From positions 51,473 through 115,472 of the IMG/VR virus record IMGVR_UViG_3300017917_003446: 64,000 bases of DNA, one strand, 5' to 3'. The translations under genes and the position numbers were made by a program. Origin of the DNA: a virus. The notes beneath the pieces were generated by a model that worked only from the letters and a program-made list of their open reading frames with translations, was not told the origin of the DNA and did no database searches. Below are positions 28,788 to 59,071 of the stretch, one piece after another. Positions within the stretch are counted from its first letter, which is position 1, and each line of letters opens with the position of its first letter.

Positions 28788-30496
28788 TAAGATTCACTAG
28801 AATAAGATGGCGTAATTTTTTATCTACGGGCAATCAGTTTACAGAAATACAACTGAATAAAAATCCCACAACACTTATAATAGGCGAGAATGGCGCAGGT
28901 AAAAGTACTATTCTCGATGCTATTTGTTTTGGTCTTTTCGGTAAGGCATTTAGGAACATTAATAAACCACAACTTGTTAATTCTATTAATCAAAAGAATT
29001 GTACTGTAGAAGTAGAATTCATTATAGGTAAAAAAGAATATAGAATAGTTAGGGGTATGAAACCTGGTGTATTTGAAATATATCAAGATGGTACTATTAT
29101 AAGCCAGGAAGCAGCTAATAGAGATTATCAGAAATATCTTGAAGACAAAATACTTAAACTAAACTATAAGTCTTTTACTCAGATTGTTATACTTGGGTCT
29201 GCATCTTTCACACCCTTTATGCAACTATCGTTAGGAAATAGACGAGAGATTATTGAGGATATATTAGATATACAAATATTTACAGTAATGAATTCTATTC
29301 TCAAAAATAGAATGATAGATCTAAAAGAAGAATTGAGAACATTAGACGCTATAATAGAGATAGGAAAACAGAAAGTAAAACTTCAAACTGATTATATCAA
29401 ACAACTTGAGGAAGATCAGAAGAAACGAGAAGCAGATGCACAACTTGCCATTATACAATCACAAGCAAATATTAATAAGCTACAAGAAGAGGCAGAGAAG
29501 TTGGTTAAAGATCTCGAGACTCTCAAAGAATCAACCAGGGATGAGCAGACTGTCTCGCAAAGAAGAACTGAGATGGTTACTTTACTTAAATCACTCACTC
29601 AGCGTATCGACTCTGCCCGGGATCAGATTACCTTCTACGAAGAACATGATAATTGTCCAACATGCGCTCAATCACTTACAGGAGAGCTTAAAGATACAGC
29701 GATTGAGAAACACTCGCATAAAATCGAAGAAATCAACGCAGCACTTGACTCGCTTAATAACAAAATCTCAGAAGTTGAAACAAGAATTGATGAGATATCT
29801 GCTATCAAGAACTCAATTGCCGATATACAAGATTCGATCGTTGACACTAACAGCAAAATCATCAGCGAGCAAACTTTTATCCGCAAGATACAAACAGAAG
29901 CAGAGAGATCGATTGATTCAGAGAACAGTTTGGCTAGTGCTAAATCAACCCTCAAGGACCTTGCCAAAGAGGTTGTATCGTCGGCAGAAAGTAAAAGTAA
30001 GCTTAAAGAGAACTCGTATTATTTTGAAGCCTGTGCCACGCTACTCAAGGATACTGGAATCAAGACTAGAATTATAAAACAGTATCTTCCTGTCATAAAC
30101 AAATTGGTAAATAAATATTTAAACGCCATGGACTTTTTTGTTTCATTTGAGTTGGATGAAGCATTTAATGAAACAATCAAGTCAAGACACAGAGATGACT
30201 TTAGTTATGCTTCATTTAGTGAGGGCGAGAAACAAAGAATTGATCTTGCATTATTATTTACTTGGCGCACTATTGCTAAAATGAAAAATAGTGCTGCAAC
30301 TAATCTACTGTTACTAGATGAAATATTTGATAGTAGCCTTGATGCTATGGGTACAGAGTTTGTTATGACTCTTCTAAACACTATAGGTGATGATATAAAT
30401 GTATTTGTGATTTCTCATAAGGGAGATCAACTTATAGATAAATTTGGTCATCTTATAAAATTTGAGAAACATCAAAACTTTAGTAGGATTGTATAA
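28784..30496 (+). CDS. gp46: Recombination endonuclease subunit gp46 (Rad50-like)
   Basis: 570 residues. ATPase head: Walker A IGENGAGKST (~34), ABC signature FSEGEKQRID (~478), Walker B LLLLDEIFD (~506). Between them is an antiparallel coiled coil with a zinc hook CPTC at ~291. Partner of gp47. The coiled-coil part (about 29500-30060) is clearly richer in GC and in CTC/TCG codons (roughly 41% against 31% on either side by hand count), so that segment may have a different history. Confidence 0.95.
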   Translation: MIRFTRIRWRNFLSTGNQFTEIQLNKNPTTLIIGENGAGKSTILDAICFGLFGKAFRNINKPQLVNSINQKNCTVEVEFIIGKKEYRIVRGMKPGVFEIYQDGTIISQEAANRDYQKYLEDKILKLNYKSFTQIVILGSASFTPFMQLSLGNRREIIEDILDIQIFTVMNSILKNRMIDLKEELRTLDAIIEIGKQKVKLQTDYIKQLEEDQKKREADAQLAIIQSQANINKLQEEAEKLVKDLETLKESTRDEQTVSQRRTEMVTLLKSLTQRIDSARDQITFYEEHDNCPTCAQSLTGELKDTAIEKHSHKIEEINAALDSLNNKISEVETRIDEISAIKNSIADIQDSIVDTNSKIISEQTFIRKIQTEAERSIDSENSLASAKSTLKDLAKEVVSSAESKSKLKENSYYFEACATLLKDTGIKTRIIKQYLPVINKLVNKYLNAMDFFVSFELDEAFNETIKSRHRDDFSYASFSEGEKQRIDLALLFTWRTIAKMKNSAATNLLLLDEIFDSSLDAMGTEFVMTLLNTIGDDINVFVISHKGDQLIDKFGHLIKFEKHQNFSRIV

Positions 30497-31089
30497 TGCT
30501 TATTCGTAAAAGTCAATTACAACTTGTGAAACCCGAAGATCCTATATTACATAAAGTGCCTGCTCCTTATGTGTTTGAGGACTACGAGGATACTACAGAG
30601 TTATTTGCTAATCTAATGTTTGATAGAATGCAAGAACTAAAAGGTATGGGTTTAGCTGCAAATCAAGTGGGTGTAAATACTCAATTTTTTACTATGGGTG
30701 TAGATGTACTTCGTATTGATGTATTCAATCCTAAGATTGTTTCAATGAGCGGAGAAGTAACAACAGAAGAAGGATGCTTAACTTATCCTGGGATTTTTCT
30801 ACAAATTAAAAGACCATTGAATATAGGTGTTGAATTTCAAAATGTCAAAGGTGAACTGGTAAAGATGAATCTTACTGGTCTAACTGCGAGAATATTTCTA
30901 CATGAATATGATCATCTTATGGGCAAAACATTTAAGGAAAAGGTATCTAATCTTAAATGGTCACTTGCTAATAAGAAGCTTAAGAATGTAAGAGATAAAC
31001 TTAAGAAAGAAATAAGACAACGATACATTGTCGACACTTATAAGGAAATGTCAAATGTCGCAAGTAGTGTTACAGGAGTACGAGAATAG
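30496..31089 (+). CDS. def: Peptide deformylase
   Basis: 197 residues with all three motifs: GMGLAANQVG (~50), EGCLTYPG (~91; Cys is a metal ligand) and HEYDHLMG (~135; two His ligands and the catalytic Glu). It removes the formyl group from nascent proteins. Viral versions are usually shorter at the C-terminus; this one has an extra ~45-residue basic helix (KWSLANKKLKNVRDKL). It overlaps the next gene. A phage initiator-like tRNA-Met at 58328 is a natural functional companion. Confidence 0.95.
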   Translation: MLIRKSQLQLVKPEDPILHKVPAPYVFEDYEDTTELFANLMFDRMQELKGMGLAANQVGVNTQFFTMGVDVLRIDVFNPKIVSMSGEVTTEEGCLTYPGIFLQIKRPLNIGVEFQNVKGELVKMNLTGLTARIFLHEYDHLMGKTFKEKVSNLKWSLANKKLKNVRDKLKKEIRQRYIVDTYKEMSNVASSVTGVRE

Positions 31090-44230: not shown

Positions 44231-44302
44231 CTGGGATGGGAACTAGCATGCCAGCGAAGGCTAGTAAAATATCCACTGGTGCCAACGCCATTTGGGTTGG
44301 CA
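44231..44302 (+). ncRNA. Candidate structured leader RNA upstream of hsp20
   Basis: Two good stem-loops lie between regA and hsp20: CTAGC/GCTAG (44243-44247 with 44260-44264) and TGCCAAC/GTTGGCA (44280-44286 with 44296-44302). A possible closing pair GGAT/ATCC (44234-44237 with 44271-44274) encloses the first. The region is more GC-rich than its surroundings and lacks a U tract, so it is not a plain terminator. It could be a regulatory leader or a small RNA; class unknown. Confidence 0.4.
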
Positions 44303-44333
44303 ATTAATTAACTCGCTTAATAGGAGAACTAAA

Positions 44334-44837
44334 ATGACGTTGTTACTTAAAAACGGACCTTTCGATATGTTTAAAGATTTTGAAAAACTATTTGTAGGTT
44401 TTGATGATACTTATAGTCGCATGGCTAAATTTCATGACGATGTGACCAAAAATATTCCAAATTACCCTCCATATAATATTCGTAAAGTAGAGGACAATAA
44501 GTATGTCATTGAACTTGCAGTAGCAGGATTTGCAAGACAGGATATTGATATTACCTTTGAAGATAATAAGTTAATTATCAGTGGTAAATCACAAGATGAT
44601 AATGATAATTTCTTATTTAAGGGTATTGCAAACAGGGCTTTTACTCGTACTTTCTTTTTAGATGACACCATTGAAATCAATGATGCAGCTATGATGAATG
44701 GTATGCTTAAAATTGCTTTGGAAAAAATTATTCCTGAGCACAAAAAGCCAAAAAAAATTGAAGTGAAGGATAGAGAATCTACTACAAAATCATCTAAGAA
44801 ACTTCTTACAGAAAATAAAGATGACGTCAATATTTAA
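44334..44837 (+). CDS. hsp20: Small heat-shock protein Hsp20
   Basis: 167 residues. Alpha-crystallin domain with YNIRKVEDNKYVIELAVAGF, a DIDITFEDNKLIISGKSQ block and an MNGMLKIAL strand; a short acidic/basic tail ends it. A holdase chaperone common in marine T4-like phages, thought to help folding of virion proteins. The ATG with AGGAGAAC upstream is chosen over a start 42 bases earlier inside the leader structure. Confidence 0.92.
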   Translation: MTLLLKNGPFDMFKDFEKLFVGFDDTYSRMAKFHDDVTKNIPNYPPYNIRKVEDNKYVIELAVAGFARQDIDITFEDNKLIISGKSQDDNDNFLFKGIANRAFTRTFFLDDTIEINDAAMMNGMLKIALEKIIPEHKKPKKIEVKDRESTTKSSKKLLTENKDDVNI

Positions 44838-45795: not shown

Positions 45796-46371
45796 ATGCC
45801 TGTCTTAAGTTATGATTATTTAGAAAAATGGGGTAGGGGTGACACTTTTATTGAAACTGGCACCTATACTGGATTTACAACCATGATGGCAAGAGGATGG
45901 GGATTTAAGAAAATACATACAGTAGAACTTATGCCTCATCTATATGAAAAAGCCTTAGATCGTTTTAAGGACGAGGACAGAATTACTTGTTGGTTAGGTG
46001 ATACGCCAGATGTCTTAAGAGAAAATATTCTTCCAAGTTTAGAAGGTGAAGCAACATTTTGGCTTGACGCTCATATGATGGGTCCAACAAATCATGTACC
46101 AAATGGTGTAGCAGGTAGTAATAAATATGGACCTGCTCCTATATTACATGAACTAAAAGCCATATCAGAACACCCGGTAAAGACACATACTATTTTTATT
46201 GATGATCAAAGATTGTTTGATACGCAGGTTTGGAACAATGTCAAAAGGTCTGATGCTTTAAGAATTATTAAGCAAATTAATCCAAGATATGAATTTGAAT
46301 GGTTGGATGGTGGAGTCGGTGATTGGCAACGGCATCTTGCTAATGATATTATTGTAGCTTATATTAAGTGA
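45796..46371 (+). CDS. Rossmann methyltransferase-like protein (paralogue of 35001)
   Basis: 191 residues. GDTFIETGTYTGFT, HTVELMPHLY and EATFWLDAH repeat the pattern of the protein at 35001-35528. The later FIDDQRLFDTQVW strand is shared too. This copy is longer at the C-terminus (EWLDGGVGDWQ). Two paralogues flank the two glycan blocks, so they may modify related sugars. Confidence 0.7.
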   Translation: MPVLSYDYLEKWGRGDTFIETGTYTGFTTMMARGWGFKKIHTVELMPHLYEKALDRFKDEDRITCWLGDTPDVLRENILPSLEGEATFWLDAHMMGPTNHVPNGVAGSNKYGPAPILHELKAISEHPVKTHTIFIDDQRLFDTQVWNNVKRSDALRIIKQINPRYEFEWLDGGVGDWQRHLANDIIVAYIK

Positions 46372-47021
46372 TGGAAAATTTAGATAATGTTGTTGTGAAA
46401 AAACCTTGGGGATATGAATATCTTTGTTACAAAAATAAAAATTTAGCTATATGGTTTTTACATATAGAAAAAAATAAATCTACTTCTTTGCATTGCCATC
46501 CTAAAAAACATACTAGTCTTATAGTTATTAATGGTGAAGTAAATATTAGTTTCATGCGAGGTAGCACTAATCTAAAAGCATTAGATAAAATTGGTATTTT
46601 TAGAAGTAGATTTCATTCTACCTGTGCTTTAACAGATGATACTTTTATTTTAGAGGTTGAGACTCCTGAGGATAAGCATGATCTAGTTAGATTAAAAGAT
46701 TCATATGGTAGACAAAATATTGGTTATGAAACCGCTGAACATCATTTTCCTAAAGACAAAAGTCATTTATGGGTAGAAGATCCTGAATGGGATCATGTTC
46801 AAAATTTTAATCTAATTAAACTTAACCATTTTATAGCTGACGAAAGAGTAAAATCTTTTACCTCAGATGATCTTATGATTGTCACAGAAGGTGGTGTTAT
46901 TACAAAAAATTATGAGCAATTAGTTTATCCGGGTGATACTATAGACGGAGAATCTTTGAATATCCTATCAGATTCATTTAATCTGTTACCATACACGACT
47001 TTAATTCATATTAAACGATGA
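46371..47021 (+). CDS. Cupin protein, mannose-6-phosphate isomerase type II-like
   Basis: 216 residues. KPWGYEYLCY at the start is the mannose-6-phosphate isomerase type II signature, followed by a cupin metal site SLHCHPKKHTSLIVI and ILEVETPEDKHDL. A second half (GGVITKNYEQLVYPGDTI) may be a second cupin. It could isomerise or epimerise a sugar phosphate. The ATG overlaps the previous TGA. Confidence 0.75.
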   Translation: MENLDNVVVKKPWGYEYLCYKNKNLAIWFLHIEKNKSTSLHCHPKKHTSLIVINGEVNISFMRGSTNLKALDKIGIFRSRFHSTCALTDDTFILEVETPEDKHDLVRLKDSYGRQNIGYETAEHHFPKDKSHLWVEDPEWDHVQNFNLIKLNHFIADERVKSFTSDDLMIVTEGGVITKNYEQLVYPGDTIDGESLNILSDSFNLLPYTTLIHIKR

Positions 47022-47491
47022 TACACATTTTTGATTTAGATAAAACTATTTGGGATACCCAAGATAAGCATGGTAATTCTATTTGGGCAAAACAACTTAT
47101 TTTTCCTTTAAATTTTCTTAAGGCAAATAAAGTGATTGATGACGTATATTCTCAATGCACTTTAAGAAATGGTGTAAAGAATTACATTAAAAAATTGCAT
47201 GATTCCGGGCATCAAATAGGTTTTATTTCTAATGCAAGACATCATGATTTTGATGACAGGTATCAACCTTCATTAGAATTATTAAAGATGTTTGGGTTAT
47301 GGGATTATTTTAATAGTATAAAAATATTACAATATAAATCTATTAGTAAAGCTATTCATTTAGAAAAATTAGAAGGACATGTTGTTTTTTATGATGACGA
47401 CATTAAAATAAGAAGCGAGGTATCCTATCTAAGTAATGTGACAGTAATAGATAGTTCTAATATATTTAACTGGGAAAAAATAGATGCTTGA
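47018..47491 (+). CDS. HAD-like phosphatase
   Basis: 157 residues. IFDLDKTIW holds the nucleophilic and acid Asp; FISNARHHD is motif II; VVFYDDDIKI is motif IV. A short single-domain phosphatase, probably acting on a sugar phosphate in this cluster. Overlaps both neighbours. Confidence 0.8.
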   Translation: MIHIFDLDKTIWDTQDKHGNSIWAKQLIFPLNFLKANKVIDDVYSQCTLRNGVKNYIKKLHDSGHQIGFISNARHHDFDDRYQPSLELLKMFGLWDYFNSIKILQYKSISKAIHLEKLEGHVVFYDDDIKIRSEVSYLSNVTVIDSSNIFNWEKIDA

Positions 47492-49004
47492 TATTTTATT
47501 TGTTCATCCTAATGCTTCAGCTAAAATTTATCAAGGTTTGGCCAACAATCATTCAGCTATTGAACCGCCTATCTGGGCAGCGATGCTTGCTAACTCTGTA
47601 AGAAAACAAGGCAATAGTGTAGCTATATTTGATGCCGAAGCAGAAAAATGTGATTATATTGAAGCAGCTAATAGAATTAAAGACTATAAGGCAAGAATAG
47701 TTTGTTTCGTTGTGTATGGTCAGCAACCCAGTGCATCCTCACAGAATATGGAAGGAGCGACTGCTACTGCAAGGTTATTAAAACAAGAGTTACCAGAGCA
47801 GTTTATTTTATTTTGTGGCGGCCATGTAGCAGCATTACCTGTAGAAACGCTTACTAAAGAAACATTTATAAATGCAGTATGTCAAAATGAGGGTGTTTAT
47901 ACTATAAGAGATCTAGTAAAAGTAGAAGATCTCACTGATAGTAATTTATTAAAAAAGGTAAATGGACTTTGTTTCAGATCAGATAAATCAGATTTCATTT
48001 ATACTAATCCAGCATCCCCCATTGTCCCAAGAGAAAAATTAGAAGAGGATTTGCCAGGGATGGCATGGGATTTGTTACCTTCGTTTGATAAGTATAGAAC
48101 AGCAGGTTGGCATTCTTGGTCTAATAATAGTGAGAATGCGCCTTTTGCTGCACTGTATACTAGTCTTGGGTGTCCCTATAGATGTTCTTTTTGTATGATT
48201 AATATCATAAACAGAACAGACCCCGGTGAAAATATTTCAAGTGCAGACAGTAACTATTTTAGATATTGGTCCCCAGATTTTATTATAAATCAATTTGATT
48301 TATTTGCTAAAGCTGGAGTAAAAAATGTAAAGATAGCAGATGAATTATTTGTCTTAAATCCAAATCATTTTTTAAAAATTTGTGAACTAATTGCAGAAAG
48401 AAAATATGAATTTAATATTTGGGCATATTCTAGAGTAGATACCTGCAAACCTAAATATTTAGATGCACTAAAGAAAGCAGGTGTTAATTGGCTTGGTCTT
48501 GGAATTGAAAATCCTGACACTGTAATTAGAAAAGAAATCCATAAGGATGGATTTAAAGATGTTAAGATATTAGATTTAATGAATTTAATACACGAGGCAG
48601 GAATAAATGTAGGTGGTAATTATATTTTTGGATTACCACATGATACACATGAATCAATGAAAAATACTTTAGATTTTGCTTTGTCTCATAAGACAGAAAT
48701 GGTTAACTTTTATTCTGCTATGGCATATCCCGGCAGTCCATTGTATTTACAGGCAAGGCAACAGAATGTAAAATTACCTGATACTTATGTTGGTTATAGC
48801 CAACACGCATATGAAACATTGAACATGGCTAATGAAAATCTAAGTGCTGCAGAGATACTTAGATTTAGAGATTTTGCCTGGAATAAGTATAACACAGATA
48901 AAGATTATTTAAATTTATTAGAAACGAAATTTGGTTCTGCAGCTAGAGTAAATTTAGAAAATACAACCAAAATTAAATTGAATAGAAAATTGCTTGGAGA
49001 TTAA
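47484..49004 (+). CDS. B12-binding-type radical SAM protein
   Basis: 506 residues. Residues ~1-160 form a cobalamin-binding-like Rossmann domain (DILFVHPNAS, CGGHVAALP). The radical SAM core follows with LGCPYRCSFC near residue 229 (CxxxCxxC) and a downstream NWLGLGIEN and GNYIFGLPHDT. Such enzymes methylate or rearrange unactivated carbons; in carbohydrate clusters they make branched or deoxy sugars. Substrate unknown. The cobalamin-binding His of the usual DxHxxG motif is not obvious. Confidence 0.82.
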   Translation: MLDILFVHPNASAKIYQGLANNHSAIEPPIWAAMLANSVRKQGNSVAIFDAEAEKCDYIEAANRIKDYKARIVCFVVYGQQPSASSQNMEGATATARLLKQELPEQFILFCGGHVAALPVETLTKETFINAVCQNEGVYTIRDLVKVEDLTDSNLLKKVNGLCFRSDKSDFIYTNPASPIVPREKLEEDLPGMAWDLLPSFDKYRTAGWHSWSNNSENAPFAALYTSLGCPYRCSFCMINIINRTDPGENISSADSNYFRYWSPDFIINQFDLFAKAGVKNVKIADELFVLNPNHFLKICELIAERKYEFNIWAYSRVDTCKPKYLDALKKAGVNWLGLGIENPDTVIRKEIHKDGFKDVKILDLMNLIHEAGINVGGNYIFGLPHDTHESMKNTLDFALSHKTEMVNFYSAMAYPGSPLYLQARQQNVKLPDTYVGYSQHAYETLNMANENLSAAEILRFRDFAWNKYNTDKDYLNLLETKFGSAARVNLENTTKIKLNRKLLGD

Positions 49005-49005
49005 G

Positions 49006-49578
49006 ATGATAAAGGCATTAATTATTACTTGGGAAAATTTCCAAGACCAAGAAGTAGTATACCCATTTTACAGACTAAAAGAAGAAACCAACGATGTGGT
49101 TATTGCTGCTAATGTACTTGGAAAATTTTATGGCATTATGGGTGTGAATATGACAGCCCATGTTCATTTAAATACACTACATAATCTTTCTAATGAAGAA
49201 AGTAAATACAATTATTTTATGGATAATTATAATCTATTAGTGTTACCTGGTGGCGTAAAATCTTTAGAAAAATTAAGACAAGAAAAACATGTGCTTAATT
49301 TTATTTCTGATTGGAATAACAAAGGCAAGTATATTGCTTCGACGTGCCATGGCGCACAATTACTTATATCTGCTAGAGCAGTACATGGTAAAAAAGTAAG
49401 CGGATACTATAGTATAAAAGACGATATAAATAATGCAGGAGCCATTTATGTAGATGAACCAGTGGTTATAGACGGCAATTTAATTACCTCACCTCATTAT
49501 GATCATATGGGTATATGGATGAAAGCTGCCATTGAGATGGTCAAAACTTCAGGATATAATACTGCTCATGTTATTTGA
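49006..49578 (+). CDS. DJ-1/PfpI family protein
   Basis: 190 residues. The nucleophile elbow IASTCHGAQLL (~113) has Cys-His, and an upstream LLVLPGG has the conserved turn. Possible chaperone, deglycase or amidotransferase-like role. The ATG directly after the previous stop is preferred. It overlaps the E1 alpha-like gene by 11 bases, so it may act on the same metabolite. Confidence 0.8.
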   Translation: MIKALIITWENFQDQEVVYPFYRLKEETNDVVIAANVLGKFYGIMGVNMTAHVHLNTLHNLSNEESKYNYFMDNYNLLVLPGGVKSLEKLRQEKHVLNFISDWNNKGKYIASTCHGAQLLISARAVHGKKVSGYYSIKDDINNAGAIYVDEPVVIDGNLITSPHYDHMGIWMKAAIEMVKTSGYNTAHVI

Positions 49579-50407
49579 AAAAATATACAATAAGGCATCA
49601 CTATGCCGCGAATTTGAAACAGAAGTATTTAAACAAGTTCAAAATAAAAATGTAACTATACCTGTTTATCTATCTGCGGGGCAGGAATATATTCCTGCCA
49701 CTATTGCTGCCTTTGTAGAAGATATGGGGTTTGAAGATCGGCAAATCTTTATTCAGCATAGAGGACATTCATCATATCTTTCTTTCGGTGGCGATGTAAA
49801 TGAACTTATTTTAGAATTACTCGGTGATTCTGAAGGATGTGCTAATGGAATGGGAGGCTCGGCATCCATTCAATCTAAAAAAGCTAAAATTTATGGACAT
49901 GATGGTTTAATGGGTTCACATGGACCTATTGCTGTGGGCATGTGTTATGCTAATAAAAAACCTACTATAGTTTTTACTGGTGACGCTGCAGCAGAAGAAG
50001 ATTATTTTTTAGCTTCAATAGCTTGGGCAGCAACAAAGAATCTTCCTATTCTATTTGTTGTGGAAGATAATAACTTAAGTATTTTAACTGAAAAGAAGGT
50101 TAGAAGATCTTGGGAAATGCATGATGTTGCGCGAGGCTTCGGTATGACAGCACATGATATAAACGATGATCCCAATGAAATAATTCCTGCACTTAAAGGT
50201 ATATTTGAAAAACCTATTTTACTAAATATAAAAACTAATAGAATGTTTTGGCATGCTGGCGCAGGCATCGATGATCCAAATATTTTTGACAGGCATAAAG
50301 AGTTTGCAAAAAATTTAGATACATCATATGTTAAATACACTGATTTTGAAAATTCTAATCTTGTGAGACTCTTATGGAATCAAGCAGTAAACCGCTTAGA
50401 GAAGTAA
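49568..50407 (+). CDS. TPP-dependent dehydrogenase E1 alpha-like subunit
   Basis: 279 residues. AGQEYIPATIA and HRGHSSYLSFGG match E1 alpha starts. The TPP motif is GDAAAEEDYFLASIAWAATKN (~138-158), ending VVEDNN. Canonical E1 alpha proteins are about 320-370 residues, so this one is compact. It works with the beta-like subunit encoded next. No E2/E3 partner is visible, so a decarboxylase-carboligase role is as likely as dehydrogenase. The ATG giving MLFEKIYN is the chosen start. Confidence 0.85.
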   Translation: MLFEKIYNKASLCREFETEVFKQVQNKNVTIPVYLSAGQEYIPATIAAFVEDMGFEDRQIFIQHRGHSSYLSFGGDVNELILELLGDSEGCANGMGGSASIQSKKAKIYGHDGLMGSHGPIAVGMCYANKKPTIVFTGDAAAEEDYFLASIAWAATKNLPILFVVEDNNLSILTEKKVRRSWEMHDVARGFGMTAHDINDDPNEIIPALKGIFEKPILLNIKTNRMFWHAGAGIDDPNIFDRHKEFAKNLDTSYVKYTDFENSNLVRLLWNQAVNRLEK

Positions 50408-51285
50408 TCAGGGATATAGTTAGATTACATCTAACTGAAAATAAAGGTATAGCTATGGGGCAATGCCTGACTGCTGTTGGTTGGGTAGGTGGAACTTTAC
50501 CTGAGCTATATGAAGAAGATGGTATGATAGAGTTGTCAATGGCAGATGTTGCAGGAAGTGGATTCGCCGTAGGTGCTGCATTGGCAGGCAAAAGACCTAT
50601 GTATATAATTAGATACCAAGGATTCAATTGGTATAATGCTGCTATGCCTGTTAATTATGCTGCTAAATCTAAAGACATTTGGAAGGTACCCTGTCCAATG
50701 TTTATTAGATCAATTGCAATGGAAGGGGGTATAGGACCTGTTGCAGGATCATCGCATCACGCATTATATTATAGAATGCCAGGAGTAAAAATATTTTCTC
50801 CAATGTCGCCTAAAGAATATAGTGAAGTTTATAATAAATTTATGGCAGATGATGATGTTTACTATGTTTCGGAGCACAGAGGAGCATATGGTAACACTGA
50901 AGAATTACCTGAAGTTGTAGTTAGAGAACCCCATTTTACTTTATTCCCCATATCAATAACGAGATTTGCTGCGATGGAAGCAGCAGATGAATTATTAAAG
51001 GAAGGCATCAGAGTTGCGGTTCATCATATTATGCAAATCAAACCATTTAAACCTTCATTACTTGCTTTAGATTCTTTAGCTGAATCTAAGTATGGTGGTA
51101 TAGTTTTAGATGATGATTATACAAATGGTATAGCAAAATCTTTAGCGTTTGATTTAGGAAGTATTACTGGTGCAAAGATGAATGTAATGGGATTAGAAGA
51201 TAAAACTGCGGGGTTTTATAGACAAGTAGATAATCTTCCTCCAAATAAAGAACAAATAATTAATAAAATTAAAAGCTTAATTTAA
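50374..51285 (+). CDS. TPP-dependent dehydrogenase E1 beta-like subunit
   Basis: 303 residues. VIELSMADVAGSGFAVGAALAG contains the conserved Glu-type pyrimidine-binding region, and GPVAGSSHHALYY the activity-related His pair; VKIFSPMSP and the C-terminal transketolase-type domain follow. With the alpha-like subunit it forms an alpha2beta2 enzyme. Overlaps the alpha gene by 34 bases. Very unusual as a phage gene pair. Confidence 0.85.
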   Translation: MESSSKPLREVIRDIVRLHLTENKGIAMGQCLTAVGWVGGTLPELYEEDGMIELSMADVAGSGFAVGAALAGKRPMYIIRYQGFNWYNAAMPVNYAAKSKDIWKVPCPMFIRSIAMEGGIGPVAGSSHHALYYRMPGVKIFSPMSPKEYSEVYNKFMADDDVYYVSEHRGAYGNTEELPEVVVREPHFTLFPISITRFAAMEAADELLKEGIRVAVHHIMQIKPFKPSLLALDSLAESKYGGIVLDDDYTNGIAKSLAFDLGSITGAKMNVMGLEDKTAGFYRQVDNLPPNKEQIINKIKSLI

Positions 51286-51321
51286 ATCTGTCGTATTGAC
51301 GCTTAAAATAAAAATTTTACT

Positions 51322-52170
51322 ATGAAATCTGACGTATTGATGCTATTTCATTTGCATAAAGATTTTGTCTTTGATCATACAAGCACATGGATCAAACCTG
51401 CATATACAGGACATGAAGAAGAATGGATGCCATCATCTAATGCAGAAAATTATATAAATGTATGCGATTCCCCGAGAAATATTTTAGAAAAGAAAAAGTA
51501 TTATCCAAATCAAACATATAAAGAATTCTTTTGGGCGATGGGAGTGGCATCTTGTCATTACTATTTAAACTATAATGATCTTGAATATAATTATCTTGGA
51601 ATTTCCTGTTATGGAAGATATCTTTTAATACATAATCCGAACGATATTCAAGAGCATAAGATTACAGTTCCTATTACTCAAGACAAAGCAGAAGAACTAA
51701 GTTCTGATAATCATCTTGTAGAAGCGTTAGATATTCTAAATACTTATGATATTATTACAAATCATGATAGAGTAATTAATATGTCTATACAAGATCAATA
51801 TTGTATGCATCAATCTATTGAGCATTGGAATAAATTTAAAGAGGGTATAGACGCTTTATTTCCTGAATATAGACCTTACATGGATTGGTTTACGAATTCA
51901 AATAAGGCAAATTTTCAATCTTCAAGTCTGTGCAGAAAGGAAGTTTTCAATAAAATATATACTGAGTATTTTGCTGTTATGGATTATGTTTGGCAAAATG
52001 TTTCAAATACTTTTCCGTTACATGGTAACAGTATAGCAGAAGAATTTCCTTTTAGATATCCTGGATTTTTAGAAGAAAGATTTATACCTTTTTTTCTGTA
52101 TGCAAACGATATAAAAAGATATAATGTTCCTTTAATAGAACTTCGCAGTTACAATAAACAAGTATACTGA
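51322..52170 (+). CDS. DUF4422-type glycosyltransferase-like protein
   Basis: 282 residues. LEYNYLGISCYGRYLLIHN recalls the DUF4422 motif YIGLxHYRRYF; YMDWFTNSNKANFQSSSLCRKEVF and FRYPGFLEERFIPFFLY are the later DUF4422 blocks. These are capsular polysaccharide transferases in bacteria. The 36 bases before it hold no clear promoter. Ends seven bases before the next gene. Confidence 0.65.
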   Translation: MKSDVLMLFHLHKDFVFDHTSTWIKPAYTGHEEEWMPSSNAENYINVCDSPRNILEKKKYYPNQTYKEFFWAMGVASCHYYLNYNDLEYNYLGISCYGRYLLIHNPNDIQEHKITVPITQDKAEELSSDNHLVEALDILNTYDIITNHDRVINMSIQDQYCMHQSIEHWNKFKEGIDALFPEYRPYMDWFTNSNKANFQSSSLCRKEVFNKIYTEYFAVMDYVWQNVSNTFPLHGNSIAEEFPFRYPGFLEERFIPFFLYANDIKRYNVPLIELRSYNKQVY

Positions 52171-52177
52171 GGCGACG

Positions 52178-53083
52178 ATGAATAGTTTAAGTGTTCGAAA
52201 AGATAGATTTAATAATTTACAAAATTTTTATGGTGTAAACAAGTATAATAATTTGCTTGGAAATTGGGATATACCTGAAGATTTATTAATAGAATTTAAA
52301 CGTAGTATAATGTTGTATATCTCAGCTGCTATGCACTTTGAATTTGTAGATGATGAAAATAGATTCATGCAAAGACTAGAAGAAAATAAAGGCAACAATT
52401 TAAACGTAACACCTAATGGCGCAGTTGTTCCTAAGAAAGAATATACTTTAGAATACAATTACTTTATAAAAAATTACTGTAAAATCATTAGTAAACTTAT
52501 AGAAAATAAACCGGAATATCTTTCTGGATTTAGATTGACGCCTAATGTAAGGGTAAAATTTTCAGATGAACCAGAGGTAAATAAGACCAGACCACAAAGC
52601 ACTGCTTTTCCACATACTGACGCTTGGTTAGAAGGTCCCTGGGGAATTATTTGTCATATTCCAATTTTAGGAGATTGTGATAAAAATTATCTAAGAATGT
52701 ATGATATTAAAGATGAGAATACATTTAATGATAATCTTTTATCTCTATCAGAAAATTTTGAGAGTATGCAGTGGGTAAAAGAACATTATGTAGTTAGTCC
52801 TTACAAAACTAAAAAGTATGCATTAAATTTTTGTGATTATGCTTTATTACATGAAACTTATAGAACTGAAGGCGCAGGCGGAAGAGTATCTATAGATTCT
52901 ACTTTATATTTTGGTGAATTTGATGTTGTAGAAAGTAGAAAATCTGAGTATATTAATTACGTACCTAATGTAGGCGAGGATATTTTTATAAAAGTAAAGA
53001 ATAGCGAAAACGAAAAGTATTATGAAAGGGCAAATGCCCAATATCATTATACATATGACAGTTTAGAACACATTATGTTATGA
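52178..53083 (+). CDS. 2OG-Fe(II)/phytanoyl-type hydroxylase-like protein
   Basis: 301 residues. FPHTDAW gives the iron HxD, LLHETYRTE a distal His, and GGRVSIDSTLYF the Arg and last strand. The first ~110 residues are an unrecognised helical extension. A dioxygenase acting on a sugar or lipid-like substrate is the best guess. Overlaps the next gene by 4 bases. Confidence 0.65.
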   Translation: MNSLSVRKDRFNNLQNFYGVNKYNNLLGNWDIPEDLLIEFKRSIMLYISAAMHFEFVDDENRFMQRLEENKGNNLNVTPNGAVVPKKEYTLEYNYFIKNYCKIISKLIENKPEYLSGFRLTPNVRVKFSDEPEVNKTRPQSTAFPHTDAWLEGPWGIICHIPILGDCDKNYLRMYDIKDENTFNDNLLSLSENFESMQWVKEHYVVSPYKTKKYALNFCDYALLHETYRTEGAGGRVSIDSTLYFGEFDVVESRKSEYINYVPNVGEDIFIKVKNSENEKYYERANAQYHYTYDSLEHIML

Positions 53084-54063
53084 TTGTTTCAAAAACACCT
53101 TTTAGATTATCTTTATTTGGTGGTGGTACAGACTATCCTGCTTGGTATGAAAATAATCAATGCAGTTTAATTACTGCAGCAATGAATCAATATACATATA
53201 TTTCAATCAAAAATTTACCACCATTTTTTGATTATAAAACTAGAATAATGTATTCTATAGTTGAAAAGGTAAATTTATTAAATGAAATAAAACATCCTGC
53301 AGTTAAAGCTTGCCTTTCATATTTAAGTATAGATGATGGTATGTCTATAGGATATGATGGAGATCTGCCTGCCAGGTCTGGAATAGGATCAAGTTCATCA
53401 TTTACTGTTGGATTATTGAATGCTTTGTATGCATATAAAGGTATAAAACTTAATAAAAGACAATTAGCAGAAGAAGCTATTCATGTTGAACATAATATTA
53501 TAAAGGAATCAGTAGGTATCCAAGATCAAATTGCTGCTGCTTATGGTGGCATAAATCTTGTAAAGATGGGGCAAAAATGGTCTGTTAAAAATTTATCATT
53601 AAGCGATGAATACATAAAGGAATTGGAATCTCATATTTTATTAGGCTATTCTAACGTAAGTAGATTTGCTGAAATACAAGCTAAAAAGAAAATAGATAAC
53701 ATAAAAGAAGGCAAATCTGAAAATGAACTTAATGAGATTTCCGGGATAGCTTATGATGCTATAAATACAATGATCCATGAAGATGACATATTTAAATTAG
53801 GTGAGTACTTGCAACAAAGTTGGGAAATAAAAAAGAAACTCGCTGATGGTATTACGACTGATTGGATAGATGAAATATATAAAACAGGTATTAAGTACGG
53901 TGCTTATGGTGGTAAACTTATGGGAGCAGGTGGGGGAGGATTCTTTTATTTCTTAGCTCCTCCTAAACTACATGATAAAATTAAAAAAGAATTAATAAGT
54001 ATTAATATTTGGGTACCTTTTAAATTTGATTTTGAGGGTAGTAGACTTTTAACATTAGGATGA
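53080..54063 (+). CDS. GHMP-family sugar kinase (HddA-like)
   Basis: 327 residues. KTPFRLSLFGGGTDYP at the start, the ATP loop PARSGIGSSSSFTVG (~92), and the C-terminal GKLMGAGGGGFFYF motif place it with heptose 7-phosphate and related sugar kinases. It phosphorylates a sugar at C1 or C7 before nucleotide activation. Stop and next start overlap (ATGA). Confidence 0.9.
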   Translation: MIVSKTPFRLSLFGGGTDYPAWYENNQCSLITAAMNQYTYISIKNLPPFFDYKTRIMYSIVEKVNLLNEIKHPAVKACLSYLSIDDGMSIGYDGDLPARSGIGSSSSFTVGLLNALYAYKGIKLNKRQLAEEAIHVEHNIIKESVGIQDQIAAAYGGINLVKMGQKWSVKNLSLSDEYIKELESHILLGYSNVSRFAEIQAKKKIDNIKEGKSENELNEISGIAYDAINTMIHEDDIFKLGEYLQQSWEIKKKLADGITTDWIDEIYKTGIKYGAYGGKLMGAGGGGFFYFLAPPKLHDKIKKELISINIWVPFKFDFEGSRLLTLG

Positions 54064-55241
54064 TTATGAAATATCCATTGATGAGAAATAACATTACCAG
54101 AGAAGATCTTGATTTAGTGATCGAACATCTTAAACAAGATAATCCTATTTTAACTAATGGTCCTCATATCAAAGAGTTTGAGGAACAGTGGTCTAATTGG
54201 CTTGGATGTAAATATAGTGTATTTGTAAATTCTGGTGCTTCTGCTAATCTCTTGACTATGGCTATGTTGAAGATTAAGCACCCAGAGGGAGGCGAAGTTA
54301 TTGTCCCTCCGTTCACTTGGGTATCAGACATAGCATCAGTTATTCAATGTGGATTTACCCCAGTGTTTGTTGATATTAATCCGAACACATTGGCAATGGA
54401 TACTGACCTTATTTTAAAAGCTTTAACGCCAAGAACAAGAGCAGTTTTTATGACTCATGCTCAAGGGTTTGTTGGACTAACTTATAAGTTATTGTATTGG
54501 CTACATCAAAAGAAAATACCTCTTATTGAAGATGTATGTGAATCTCATGGCGCAAAATTTAATGCAAGTACACAGAAAGTAGGAACATTTGGTTGGGTAT
54601 CTAATTTTTCCTTTTATTATGCACATCATATGTCTACTATTGAAGGCGGCATGGTCTGTACTAATGATAAAGATGTTTACCATACAGTTAGAATGTTAAG
54701 ATCACATGGCATGGTAAGAGAATGTAATAGTGATGAAATCAAATCGCAGTATATTTCAGATCATCCAGATCTAAATCCTAGTTTTATTTTTGCGCATCCT
54801 GCATACAATATGCGAGGTACAGAAATAGGTGGAATCTTAGGCAAAAGTCAATTGAAACGCTTAGACGAAAATATTGAAAAGCGTAATAGAAATCACGAGT
54901 ATTTCTTAAGTAAACTTGACCCGGTAAAATATAAAACTGATTTTTATCTTGATGGTGCAAGTAACTATGCTTTTAATCTTGTTCTAAATGCTCCAGATTT
55001 TGTGTTTGTAGAAAAATTAATGAATACTATGGATGATCATGGTATTGAATACAGAAGAGGTAGTGCAGGTGGTGGTAATCAATTAAGGCAACCTTATCTT
55101 AAGAATCATGTACCTGAAGGGTTTGCCGAACAGTTTCCTGAGACAGATCATATGCATTTCTTTGGATTTTATATAGGTAATTATCCCGAGCTTACCTTTG
55201 AGGAAATAGATGAAATTGTTGGAGTTTTAAATAATGCGTAA
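54060..55241 (+). CDS. DegT-family PLP enzyme with Lys-to-His change (ColD/RfbH-type 3-dehydratase)
   Basis: 393 residues of the DegT/DnrJ/EryC1 family. The PLP Lys site is FSFYYAHHMSTIEGGM: the usual Lys is His (His190). That change defines the sugar C3-dehydratases ColD and RfbH/E1 and marks dehydratase rather than aminotransferase chemistry. The four-Cys [2Fe-2S] set of RfbH is not seen, which leans to a ColD-like cofactor-only enzyme. It probably makes a 3-deoxy or 3,6-dideoxy sugar. IEDVCESHGA holds the conserved Asp. Confidence 0.85.
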   Translation: MIMKYPLMRNNITREDLDLVIEHLKQDNPILTNGPHIKEFEEQWSNWLGCKYSVFVNSGASANLLTMAMLKIKHPEGGEVIVPPFTWVSDIASVIQCGFTPVFVDINPNTLAMDTDLILKALTPRTRAVFMTHAQGFVGLTYKLLYWLHQKKIPLIEDVCESHGAKFNASTQKVGTFGWVSNFSFYYAHHMSTIEGGMVCTNDKDVYHTVRMLRSHGMVRECNSDEIKSQYISDHPDLNPSFIFAHPAYNMRGTEIGGILGKSQLKRLDENIEKRNRNHEYFLSKLDPVKYKTDFYLDGASNYAFNLVLNAPDFVFVEKLMNTMDDHGIEYRRGSAGGGNQLRQPYLKNHVPEGFAEQFPETDHMHFFGFYIGNYPELTFEEIDEIVGVLNNA

Positions 55242-56190
55242 AATTTTAGTGACAGGTGGTGCTGGATATATTGGCTCAATACTATCACAGCAGTTGCTTA
55301 CTTATAACTATGAAGTAATTATACTTGATGATTTTAGATATAAGCAAAATATTAATCATTTATGCTATTTGGATAGTTGTGAAATCATAAAAGGAGATGT
55401 GAGAGACGAATCATTAATGCGTTCACTTATGAAAAAAGCTGACGTTGTGATTCCTTTAGCAGCACTTGTAGGCGCACCGATATGTAAAGCAGATCCTATC
55501 AATGCTGATTCTATAAACAAAGATGCTATTCTTAAAATGTTAGAAATGAAGGCAAAAGATCAGATTATTATGATGCCTACTACTAACAGTGCTTATGGAT
55601 CAGGCCATGCTTTGAATGGTGATTCTACAATAAACAACTATTGTGATGAAAATTCACCTTTGAATCCTATATCAAAATATGCCGTTGATAAAGTAATGAT
55701 TGAAAAAGAACTAATGCAACATGAAAATGTTATTAGTTTTCGTTTAGCTACAGTGATGGGTATGTCCCCAAGAATGAGATTAGATCTATTAGTAAATCAA
55801 TTTGTATATAGAGCACTTACAGATAAGACTATTGTAATGTTTGAGGGGCATTTTAAAAGAAACTATATTCATGTTAGGGACGTTGCTTTTGCAATGCTTC
55901 ACTCTTTAAGTATGTTTACTAAAATGAAAAATAATATTTACAACTTAGGATTATCTGACGCTAATATTTCTAAAATGGAACTTGCTAATCTAATTAAAAA
56001 TTATATACCCGATTTTGTTGTTATGGAAGCAGAATATATTAAAGATCCTGATCAAAGAAATTATATAGTATCTAACGATAAAATAGAAAAAACAGGTTGG
56101 CGTCCCATGTATAATTTAGATAAAACAATAAAAGAATTGATGAAGGGTATTCCTACTCTTAAGAATACTGTGTACGATAATTTGATATGA
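55234..56190 (+). CDS. NAD-dependent sugar epimerase/dehydratase
   Basis: 318 residues. VTGGAGYIGSILSQQL is the NAD loop; MPTTNSAYGSG the Thr/Ser site; PISKYAVDKVMIE the Tyr-x3-Lys. Extended SDR, probably acting on a nucleotide sugar in the deoxysugar pathway. It overlaps the DegT gene by 8 bases and the hydroxylase gene by 4. Confidence 0.85.
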   Translation: MRKILVTGGAGYIGSILSQQLLTYNYEVIILDDFRYKQNINHLCYLDSCEIIKGDVRDESLMRSLMKKADVVIPLAALVGAPICKADPINADSINKDAILKMLEMKAKDQIIMMPTTNSAYGSGHALNGDSTINNYCDENSPLNPISKYAVDKVMIEKELMQHENVISFRLATVMGMSPRMRLDLLVNQFVYRALTDKTIVMFEGHFKRNYIHVRDVAFAMLHSLSMFTKMKNNIYNLGLSDANISKMELANLIKNYIPDFVVMEAEYIKDPDQRNYIVSNDKIEKTGWRPMYNLDKTIKELMKGIPTLKNTVYDNLI

Positions 56191-56942
56191 TCAATCAACG
56201 AAATTTTTACGACATAGAAAAATTAAGATCAGATTTTCTATCGGCTAAACCTTTCAACTATGTAGTTATAGATAATTTCTTAGAAGAATGGTTAGCAGAA
56301 AAAATTTACGACGAAATACCTAATTGGGATGATGATAAAGCATGGGGAGTTTTTTATAATAATCCGATTGAAGTGAAGAAAACAACTAATCATTGGGATA
56401 AATTTAAAGAATATACTTATAAAACTTTTCATTATTTAAATTCAAAACAATATTTAGATGAAATAAGATATATTACAGATTGTCAAGGATTAGTAGCAGA
56501 TGAAGGACTACATGGTGGAGGATATCATTGCCATGGTAATGGTGGAAAGTTAAATGTGCATTTAGATTATAATATACATCCTAAGCTAAAACTACAAAGA
56601 AAACTAAATATTATAATATACTTAGCAAAAAATTGGAAAAAAGAATATGGTGGAGAATTACAACTATGGCATGGAGATAATGAAAAAGCTATTAGTTGTG
56701 AGCAAGTAATAGATATAAAATTTAATAGAGCTATTCTATTTGATACTACACAAAATTCTTGGCATGGATTCCCCGGCACAATAAAATGTCCCGATGAAAT
56801 TAGTAGAAAAAGTTTAGCTGTGTATTACTTACAACCACCTAAAGATAGTAACAATAGATATAGAGCATTGTATGTTCCCTCAAAAGAACAAGAAAATGAT
56901 CCCAGTGTTGTTGAATTTTGTAAAGAGAGAAGTAAATTATGA
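56187..56942 (+). CDS. 2OG-Fe(II) oxygenase (prolyl-4-hydroxylase-like)
   Basis: 251 residues. KLNVHLDYNIHP gives the HxD, NSWHGFPGTI the distal His, and SRKSLAVYYL the Arg. GGELQLWHGD is the intervening strand. One of three such oxygenases in this window. Target unknown. Confidence 0.85.
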   Translation: MINQRNFYDIEKLRSDFLSAKPFNYVVIDNFLEEWLAEKIYDEIPNWDDDKAWGVFYNNPIEVKKTTNHWDKFKEYTYKTFHYLNSKQYLDEIRYITDCQGLVADEGLHGGGYHCHGNGGKLNVHLDYNIHPKLKLQRKLNIIIYLAKNWKKEYGGELQLWHGDNEKAISCEQVIDIKFNRAILFDTTQNSWHGFPGTIKCPDEISRKSLAVYYLQPPKDSNNRYRALYVPSKEQENDPSVVEFCKERSKL

Positions 56943-57586
56943 ATTTGTGGAACGAATTTAAAACTAATCAACATAAGATTATACATAAGTGGTCACACTA
57001 TTTTCCAGTTTATGATAAACTACTATCAGAATATAGAAACAAAAATATAAATGTCTTGGAAATAGGTGTGCTTGATGGTGGTTCTTTAGAACTATGGCAT
57101 AGATATTTTGGACCTAATGCTCTCATTGTGGGCATAGATAATCACTTTCAACCCAATAGCCAGGGATTATCTTTTGATAATCCCATGATACAATTTAGAA
57201 GAGGCGACCAATCTGATACTAATTTTTTAAATGAAGTTGTAAAAGAGTTTGGTGAATTTGATATTATTATAGATGATGGATCTCATGTGTCGCAGCATGT
57301 AATAAAATCATTTAATGCTTTATACCCATATGTTACTAAGAATGGTATGTATATTATAGAAGATACGCATACTTCATACTGGGGTTCTCACGGTGGAGGA
57401 TTGAAACTACCGAACACTACAATAGAATTTGCTAAAGAATTAGTAGATGAACTAAATGCAGTACATACTAAAATTTTACCAGTAACAGATTTTACAGAGC
57501 AAACTCATAGCATTACTTTTTATGATAGTATGATTGTAGTACAAAAAGGTGGTTCACGTTGGAAACAAGCAGTGAGTAGTTCATGA
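56939..57586 (+). CDS. SAM-dependent methyltransferase (MycE/CmcI-like)
   Basis: 215 residues. NVLEIGVLDGGSLELW is the glycine loop, IVGIDNHF the acidic site, FDIIIDDGSHVSQH a metal-type Asp/His motif, and IIEDTHTSYWG the next strand. This pattern is that of sugar O-methyltransferases such as MycE. Methylation of a completed glycan is plausible. ATGA-type overlaps on both sides. Confidence 0.82.
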   Translation: MNLWNEFKTNQHKIIHKWSHYFPVYDKLLSEYRNKNINVLEIGVLDGGSLELWHRYFGPNALIVGIDNHFQPNSQGLSFDNPMIQFRRGDQSDTNFLNEVVKEFGEFDIIIDDGSHVSQHVIKSFNALYPYVTKNGMYIIEDTHTSYWGSHGGGLKLPNTTIEFAKELVDELNAVHTKILPVTDFTEQTHSITFYDSMIVVQKGGSRWKQAVSSS

Positions 57587-58323
57587 AATCCGCACTAGTA
57601 ATTACGCCCACTACAGGAGCATCTGTACTAAAAGATGCTATGGAATCAGTGCAGAATCAATACTATGACAATGTGGAACATTTGATAGTAATTGATGGAG
57701 AAAAATTTGCAGATAGAGCATATAAAACTATAAAGGAATCAGGTTTAACCAAAAAACATAAAGTGCAAATTAGTCTTGTGCCATATAATACAGGCGGAGA
57801 AGGATACTACGGACACAGAGTAATGGCAGCATATAGTCATCTATGTCCCCATGATTATATTTTATTTTTAGATCAAGACAATTGGTATGAGCCTAATCAC
57901 GTATCAAGTTTAATAAAAGAAATAGAAGAATTTAATTTTGAATGGGCACACAGCTTAAGAAATATATATACTGAGAACAAAGAATTTGTTTGCAGAGATG
58001 ACTGTGAATCGTTAGGTAGATGGCCTGTTTGGGTTAAAGAAGACCAGCACCTAGTTGATTCAAGCTCTTATTGTTTCACTAATAAATTTTTACGAATGGT
58101 TGGACATATTTGGGATCATGGGTGGGGTGCAGATAGAAGATTTTATATGATTCTAAAGAACGATATGATGCATAAAAATTATGGGTGTAGTGGCAAATAT
58201 ACTATGAATTATAGATTAGGTGGCAATGAAGGATCAGTAACACCCGATTTCTTTATTAAAGGTAATGAAATATCTAAACAAAGATACGGTGATAAATATC
58301 CATGGTCTACAGAATTGAAGTAA
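57583..58323 (+). CDS. Glycosyltransferase family 2
   Basis: 246 residues. ALVITPTTGASVLKDAMESVQNQYYDNVEHLIVIDG is the GT2 entry; YILFLDQDNWYE the DxD site; GWGADRRFYMIL a late acceptor motif. Last gene of the second glycan block, five bases before the tRNA. Confidence 0.88.
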   Translation: MKSALVITPTTGASVLKDAMESVQNQYYDNVEHLIVIDGEKFADRAYKTIKESGLTKKHKVQISLVPYNTGGEGYYGHRVMAAYSHLCPHDYILFLDQDNWYEPNHVSSLIKEIEEFNFEWAHSLRNIYTENKEFVCRDDCESLGRWPVWVKEDQHLVDSSSYCFTNKFLRMVGHIWDHGWGADRRFYMILKNDMMHKNYGCSGKYTMNYRLGGNEGSVTPDFFIKGNEISKQRYGDKYPWSTELK

Positions 58324-58327
58324 CAAG

Positions 58328-58402
58328 CGCGGGGTAGTTCAGTAGGAGAACAGTGGACTCATAATCCACAGGTCGGAGGTGCGAATCCTTCCCCCGCATC
58401 CA
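58328..58402 (+). tRNA. tRNA-Met (CAT), initiator-like
   Basis: A 75-base cloverleaf with CCA encoded. Acceptor CGCGGGG pairs with CCCCGCA, leaving a C1-A72 mismatch, the hallmark of bacterial initiator tRNA. The anticodon loop is CTCATAA, as in tRNA-fMet; the anticodon stem has GC pairs at 29-41 and 30-40 and AU at 31-39. D-stem GTTC/GAAC. Oddities: discriminator U, G at T-loop position 55 (TGCGAAT), and elongator-like Y11-R24. Ile2 (lysidine) identity is less likely given the mismatch. Confidence 0.85.
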
Positions 58403-58502: not shown

Positions 58503-58889
58503 CTATTTACCATCGTCTTTCTTATCTTTGGCATCTTTGTCAGCTGCCCTTTGTGCGGCAGCTCCAGCCATTGCTGCTTCCTTACCTGTACCTGCCAACA
58601 TTATACCTGATAATGTACCACATAAAAATGTTGCTACAGGAATAATAAGTTCAAAGAATTTTTGATCTATAGGGCTAATAGCATTAAGAGGTTGAGTAAC
58701 AAACATAATACTATACAACACCGTAAACACAATACCAATAAGAGTAAAGGCTAGGCAACATCCAATAATAAACTTAAGACGAACCATAAGTTCGTTTTCT
58801 GTATAGCGCTCACCTTTTTTACTTCTATTAGAATCTGTTTTAGGATCTTCAGCTTTAGCCATAACTTTGTCTACAATATTATCTAGCAT
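58503..58889 (-). CDS. Small membrane protein with two transmembrane segments
   Basis: 128 residues. A basic N-terminus, two hydrophobic segments (LKFIIGCCLAFTLIGIVFTV and LIIPVATFLCGTLSGIML), then an Ala-rich and strongly charged tail (AADKDAKDKKDDGK). Two membrane segments and a charged tail recall holins, but nothing is specific. The ATG overlaps the lipoprotein stop (TAATG), preferred over a GTG upstream. Confidence 0.6.
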   Translation of the reverse strand: MLDNIVDKVMAKAEDPKTDSNRSKKGERYTENELMVRLKFIIGCCLAFTLIGIVFTVLYSIMFVTQPLNAISPIDQKFFELIIPVATFLCGTLSGIMLAGTGKEAAMAGAAAQRAADKDAKDKKDDGK

Positions 58890-59071
58890 TATTTGCACTC
58901 CTTCTTAGCTTCTTCCTTAAATATATGCTCAGGACAAGTCTTGTTTATTTCGCACCAAGGTTTTTTACATATATCTTTATCCCAATTGTCTGGATTTTGG
59001 CAGGGATATCTGTAGTAATCTGAGCATCCTGCCAATAAAGCTAAACTAAATAAAGCTATTAGCCTAGCCAT
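58889..59071 (-). CDS. Small lipoprotein
   Basis: 60 residues. MARLIALFSLALLAGC is a clear type II signal with lipobox LLAGC. The mature part has six Cys including the lipid-bearing one (CQNP, ICKK, WCEI, TCPE). It could be a spanin outer-membrane subunit or a superinfection factor; the Cys content suggests disulphide bonding in the periplasm. It overlaps the upstream gene by 13 bases. Confidence 0.75.
   Translation of the reverse strand: MARLIALFSLALLAGCSDYYRYPCQNPDNWDKDICKKPWCEINKTCPEHIFKEEAKKECK

Follow-up and report, generated by a model that had tools for sequence, protein, structure and literature searches.

The locus described here raises the question of whether the single tRNA gene of a virus encodes an initiator tRNA. 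The window, which is the whole 64,000-nucleotide stretch of DNA that was analysed, corresponds to positions 51473-115472 of a 115,472-bp IMG/VR record. One tRNA gene was found in it, on the + strand at 58328-58402, and this is the sole tRNA of the entire record. ARAGORN identified it as tRNA-Met(cat), and Rfam family RF00005 matched it with 63.2 bits (E = 2e-11). The minimum free energy fold is a cloverleaf in which 1:72 is open, and the sequence, divided into its structural segments, is CGCGGGG-UA-GUUC-AGUAGGA-GAAC-A-GUGGA-CUCAUAA-UCCAC-AGGUC-GGAGG-UGCGAAU-CCUUC-CCCCGCA-U-CCA. The gene has the following parts, which were read from the sequence unless another basis is given.

58328-58402, + strand: initiator-like tRNA(CAU) gene with encoded CCA (ARAGORN, Rfam RF00005)
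58328-58334, + strand: 5' strand of the acceptor stem, CGCGGGG (C1, G2, C3), the same as in E. coli tRNA-fMet
58341-58347, + strand: D loop AGTAGGA
58344-58345, + strand: A18 G19 in the D loop, with A18 as the partner of G55 (perfect 18:55 coupling among 7-nt D loops)
58353-58369, + strand: anticodon arm GUGGA-CUCAUAA-UCCAC, with G29-C41 and G30-C40 kept and A31-U39 in place of G31-C39 (sequence and survey of viral anticodon stems)
58380-58386, + strand: T loop UGCGAAU, with G55 at 58381 (sequence and Rfam alignment)
58392-58398, + strand: 3' strand of the acceptor stem, CCCCGCA, with A72 last
58399-58402, + strand: U73 (58399), followed by CCA (58400-58402)

Genomic context of the tRNA gene

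The virus is placed among the T4-like myoviruses because it encodes a terminase, a contractile tail sheath, and a gp46-like protein, and its terminase is ~47-48% identical to those of cyanophages such as S-RSM4 and of Pelagibacter phage Mosig. The G+C content of the phage is 34%. The tRNA lies between two protein-coding genes.

57583-58323, + strand: GT2 glycosyltransferase gene (PF00535), with its stop 4 nt 5' of the tRNA
58503-58898, - strand: phrog_25359 gene, convergent and downstream of the tRNA; relatives also have it beside the tRNA

Since the tRNA begins so soon after the glycosyltransferase stop codon, it is probably the end of the glycosyltransferase transcript. The order of these two genes is retained at L093 (90% protein identity) and in L466/G010 (60%). 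A sugar-modification cassette (45796-58323), composed of radical SAM/B12, transketolase halves, GHMP kinase, DegT aminotransferase, epimerase, methyltransferase, and GT2 genes, ends at the tRNA. This cassette is absent upstream of the tRNA in the relative G109, while the tRNA and both outer neighbours are still there; the tRNA therefore lies at the border of a variable region. An Hsp20 small heat-shock protein is encoded at 44292-44837, with TTG as its listed start.

Initiator and elongator signals

The preliminary description, made from the sequence alone, considered the tRNA to be an initiator-like hybrid with C1-A72, two of the three GC pairs of the anticodon stem, Y11-R24, U73, and G55, and each of these features is indeed present. 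The acceptor stem, with the pairs C1-A72, G2-C71, C3-G70, G4-C69, and G5-C68, matches that of E. coli tRNA-fMet base for base, C1-A72 included; the reference sequence used for E. coli tRNA-fMet is present in 5395/5426 E. coli genomes. The open 1:72 that characterizes a bacterial-type initiator is therefore found in the form of C1·A72. It is accompanied by G2-C71 and C3-G70, and C1·A72 and G2-C71/C3-G70 are formylation determinants (PMC7949028). The rest of the molecule departs from the canonical initiator. U11-A24 occupies the place of A11-U24, a minor initiator determinant, and of the three consecutive GC pairs at 29:41, 30:40, and 31:39, the first two are found (G29-C41 and G30-C40) and the third is A31-U39. 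With only two of the three GC pairs, the tRNA is filed as initiator-like and not as a canonical tRNA-fMet.

Log-odds of an initiator profile over an elongator profile, the former built on 16 canonical sequences, separate the parts of the molecule. The acceptor of the window tRNA gave +31.7 bits, equal to E. coli fMet, whereas E. coli Met gave -18.8 and Ile2 gave -31.8. The D stem (-8.7 bits) and the anticodon stem (-18.0 bits) fall on the elongator side, and the median log-odds of the viral class described below are likewise negative for both stems. The CTCATAA loop, which had been counted as a tRNA-fMet feature, was rejected as an initiator mark; its log-odds are zero, and the elongator Met and Ile2 references carry the same loop.

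Two other identities must be weighed here. A tRNA-Ile2, in which C34 is converted to lysidine and AUA is read, would have the same CAU anticodon and the CUCAUAA loop that is common to Ile2. An Ile2-type acceptor contains C4-G69/C5-G68, the pairs that are the determinants of TilS, together with A73. In contrast, the window tRNA has G4-C69, G5-C68, and U73, and its acceptor score is opposite in sign to that of E. coli Ile2, which leaves this identity with almost no credence. The U73 is also unusual among CAU tRNAs, nearly all of which have A73, and it counts against a working initiator. Alternatively, the gene could encode an elongator tRNA-Met with an odd acceptor that serves internal AUG codons, a reading that agrees with Y11-R24, A31-U39, and the elongator-like D arm. 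However, an elongator tRNA-Met has a paired 1:72, while the window tRNA has C1·A72, which is the chief barrier to EF-Tu binding. The comparison with other viruses bears further on this alternative.

Distribution of the hybrid tRNA

IMG/VR was scanned for the GGA/UCC hybrid with the pattern CGCGGGN{19,27}GGACTCATAATCC, in which position 72 was left free, and at least 119 stretches matched. At least 106 well-folded viral hybrids with C1 and the anticodon stem GGA/UCC were obtained. Among the 106 that were listed, position 72 was A in 98; U and C occurred in 4 each, and G was absent; the 67 distinct hybrid sequences among the matches listed comprised 60 with A72, 4 with U72, and 3 with C72. Because the viral scans match fixed strings at the start (CGCGGG) and in the loop (CUCAUAA), variants such as U1-A72 escape them. 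Viral sequences are kin, so the p-values given for them overstate independence, and cluster counts lessen this kinship but do not remove it.

The hybrid pattern with 3' CGCA gave five matches in 84,980 prokaryote genomes, four of which were rejected as elongators preceded by CGC by chance. The one true hybrid (L137:2296-2367) has no encoded CCA; its contig, 15 kb long and from a Kapaibacterium MAG, may be phage sequence. A canonical GGG/CCC match exists elsewhere in four of the five genomes with pattern matches. The CGCGGG...CGCA frame occurs in 4/148 and 2/61 genomes of the phyla of two MAG matches, and the seven matches in these phylum samples (six GGG/CCC and the hybrid already found) say little about bacterial anticodon stems, the frame being uncommon there. 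With at least 106 viral hybrids against one true match in 84,980 genomes, the GGA/UCC hybrid C1·A72 tRNA is mostly viral. In addition, 346 phage records resemble tRNA-fMet at E<=1e-3, a number that may include some elongators. These counts contradict the earlier statement that such a tRNA is rare among phage tRNAs.

The initiator-like tRNA was the only tRNA in the stretch examined at 64/108 carrier loci, compared with 22/100 control loci (p=6e-8). Since carrier loci often have this tRNA alone, codon compensation does not explain its presence.

Conservation within the anticodon stem

A further viral scan left the anticodon stem unconstrained and prescribed the ends of the acceptor, the loop, and CCA. 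The stems among its listed matches were AGG/CCU (30), AGU/GCU (24), GGG/CCC (14), GGA/UCC (13), UGG/CCA (10), and GGU/GCC (9), plus others. Some of the AGG/CCU tRNAs have a canonical body and are probably host DNA at provirus ends. The AGU/GCU tRNAs (24/116 listed in this sample; L144, L147, L185, L206, and similar loci) form a second large type of viral C1·A72 tRNA, which has a U31·G39 wobble and an A11-U24-like D arm.

G30-C40 was found in 73/76 listed viral C1·A72 tRNAs of the stem-free sample, canonical bodies excluded, compared with 58/90 viral CAU tRNAs whose 1:72 is paired (p=2e-7). This elongator control includes some GGA-selected loci, which raises its share of G30-C40 and makes the test conservative; its pattern replaced a first one that yielded six loci only. 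By 85% clusters, the figures among the matches listed are 69/72 for C1·A72 tRNAs and 43/71 for CAU controls with a paired 1:72, and 73/76 is the cleaner figure since the cluster set includes GGA/UCC-selected loci that have G30-C40 by design. The pairs 29:41 and 31:39 vary freely in viral C1·A72 tRNAs, and position 11 is C or U in 32/76 listed members of the class. On the ribosome, 16S A1339 and G1338 make A-minor contacts to the 30-40 and 29-41 pairs, and flipping of G30-C40 to C-G decreases initiation 20-fold (PMC11497404). The window tRNA retains exactly these two contacted pairs, while the third pair is changed. As judged from sequence, keeping 29-41 and 30-40 while changing 31:39 is the outcome that would be expected of selection for P-site initiation.

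The initiator-like character thus gains comparative support, as C1 is never combined with G72 in the 106 viral homologues listed and G30-C40 is kept while its neighbours drift. In contrast, relaxed use as an elongator predicts no near-invariant G30-C40 confined to the C1·A72 class, nor does the class contain a single C1-G72 among the matches listed. The elongator reading is consequently considered unlikely.

The 18:55 contact and relatives of the tRNA

The G18·Ψ55 contact is near-universal in tRNAs. G55 was found in 33/144 listed viral C1·A72 tRNAs, compared with 11/1587 other tRNAs of the same loci (p=2e-28). Among C1·A72 tRNAs with a 7-nt D loop, A18 G19 occurs with G55 in 28/28 and G18 G19 with U55 in 53/53; the corresponding figures for other isotypes are 5/5 and 364/365. 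The swap is present in at least eight 85% clusters and leaves G19-C56 unchanged. Since A18 G19 always comes with G55, and G18 G19 with U55, A18·G55 appears to stand in for G18·Ψ55 in the window tRNA; as position 55 is G, no pseudouridine is possible there. The strict coupling also rules out G55 as a sign of decay. U73 accompanies G55 in 8/9 distinct U73 sequences among the matches listed, and the U73 and G55 of the window would therefore represent one sub-lineage or one structural solution. The term hybrid stands, but the oddities are a coherent viral pattern and not those of a broken initiator because A18 compensates G55 and A31-U39 lies outside the 16S-contacted pairs. Another group of C1·A72 tRNAs has the T loop CGCG... 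(C54 G55), U73, and CCC instead of CCA (L033, L049, L051, L053, L057, L066, L126, and L128).

The departures at 11:24, 31:39, 55, and 73 could also be expected of a functionless, decaying gene derived from a host initiator. However, the stems are intact, CCA is encoded, the A18-G55 swap is exact, and the changes seen in relatives are compensated. The tRNA of G025 (locus L093) is 74/75 identical to the window tRNA in a syntenic region where most neighbour proteins are 85-96% identical, and that of G109 (L102) is 71/75 identical and is followed by the same downstream genes; in both cases, this identity sits beside diverged flanks. In the G010 tRNA, the stem changes at 27:43 and 11:24 are both compensated, and in the G110 tRNA, positions 18 and 55 are altered jointly. 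C1·A72 is retained in all four relatives. Decay is therefore highly improbable.

Peptide deformylase

The preliminary description paired the tRNA with a phage peptide deformylase (PDF) encoded in the same window.

30496-31089, + strand: peptide deformylase gene (PF01327, 117.3 bits)

The enzyme itself was identified correctly. The PF01327 fold and the three metal and active-site motifs, GMGLAANQ, EGCLT, and HEYDH, are all present, and the gene is intact in sequence, as expected of a peptide deformylase. The two genes could be a functional pair that boosts or rescues initiation based on formyl-methionine, and both occur in the window phage and in the near relative G025. PDF was found in 7/40 carrier contigs and in 2/47 control contigs of at least 30 kb, a difference with p=0.07, and 33/40 carrier contigs, which may be partial, show no PDF. 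Moreover, 27 kb separate the two genes in the window, and of the seven PDF carriers, the six other than G025 lie outside the tRNA subtype of the window. PDF directly follows a gp46/SbcC-like gene (28784-31089 for the two together), an order that is kept in G025, G093, G094, and G073, and the C1·A72 tRNA pattern had no match in the PDF-bearing G093, G094, and G073. PDF is a lineage gene, and the proposed pairing is very unlikely.

Proposed role of the tRNA

Taken together, the tRNA is probably a working phage tRNA of the initiator type and a member of a widespread viral class. The sequence features, distribution, covariation, and conservation are best read as those of a tRNA that would be charged and formylated by the host and used as an initiator, and from them we infer a course that leads from expression, charging, and formylation through EF-Tu exclusion to start-codon use and a benefit to the phage. 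The tRNA would be made as the last part of the upstream operon's transcript, from which host enzymes would trim it. The CAU anticodon would let host MetRS charge it, and host Met-tRNA formyltransferase would formylate it, with 1:72 open and G2-C71/C3-G70 present. C1·A72 would hold it off EF-Tu. Once IF2 had brought it to the P site, its pairs G30-C40 and G29-C41 would be gripped by A1339 and G1338. Three canonical features would be dispensable: A31-U39 would have taken the place of the third GC pair, U11-A24 that of the A11-U24 type D stem, and A18·G55 that of G18·Ψ55. During infection, the tRNA may supplement the initiator pool of the host or take its place.

The likeliest benefit is that the initiator pool is refilled, whether or not the tRNA also resists VapC and other nucleases that cut initiators. 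In the Shigella case studied in PMC10264068, tRNA-fMet is generally avoided by phages. VapC is an enzyme that cleaves initiator tRNA, and according to a proposal discussed in the same paper, phage tRNAs escape such enzymes. It is possible, though rather doubtful, that the initiator was selected specifically to resist host nucleases such as VapC in an abortive response, with 31:39 and the elbow as escape changes. Besides the proposal for phage tRNAs, this reading is favoured by the position of the variable pair 31:39, which adjoins the loop, and by the 18:55 swap, which gives the elbow a different contact; both changes are rare outside the viral class. However, the CUCAUAA loop, the usual escape site, is unchanged (the loop was fixed by the search patterns).

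Implications and comparison with known initiator tRNAs

What is essential in an initiator tRNA has been learned mostly from a small number of E. coli mutants, and unconventional initiator tRNAs are reportedly a subject of the Varshney laboratory. The literature searched, which included few subscription papers, contained no description of viral initiator-like tRNAs of this pattern or of the A18·G55 swap. The viral tRNAs amount to a natural experiment, which suggests that C1·A72 and G30-C40 are the core and the rest is replaceable, in agreement with the contacts in ribosome structures. They keep the features that are checked by the ribosome and the formylating enzyme, and others have changed that bacteria hardly ever change, including clean covariation at 18:55, a contact usually held as fixed in tRNAs. 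It can tentatively be hypothesized that viruses of bacteria possess an extensive set of initiator tRNAs with an evolution of its own, in which the three-GC rule is largely lost except for the middle pair gripped by the ribosome and A18·G55 has appeared repeatedly; such a set might evade host nucleases or modification enzymes directed at initiators, or shift start-site choice to phage mRNAs. A lone initiator-like tRNA, unexplained by codon compensation, also bears on why phages carry tRNAs. Because cultured phages have the same type (Philippe, RiverRider, and RHph_X66), the idea is testable.

The closest tRNAs are those of L093 (G025) and L102 (G109), which share the neighbours, U73, and A18·G55 of the window tRNA but, unlike it, have G26. 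Stenotrophomonas phage Philippe, Xanthomonas phage RiverRider, and Rhizobium phages RHph_X66 and B1VFA, which belong to unrelated phage groups, have tRNAs with C1·A72, the GGA/UCC stem, and Y11-R24 as in the window. In contrast, these tRNAs, annotated as tRNA-Met only, have U55 with G18 G19 and A73 and are located within tRNA arrays. Rhizobial initiator tRNAs with A29-U41, found on provirus-like contigs and apparently host genes, are a natural case in which one GC pair is relaxed and G30-C40 is kept; they differ from the window tRNA in that the change is at 29:41 and the D arm is canonical. The E. coli metY/metZ tRNA-fMet and the window tRNA have in common the whole acceptor stem, C1·A72, CAU, G29-C41, and G30-C40, whereas the window tRNA has A31-U39 for G31-C39, U11-A24 for A11-U24, A18·G55 for G18·Ψ55, and U73 for A73.
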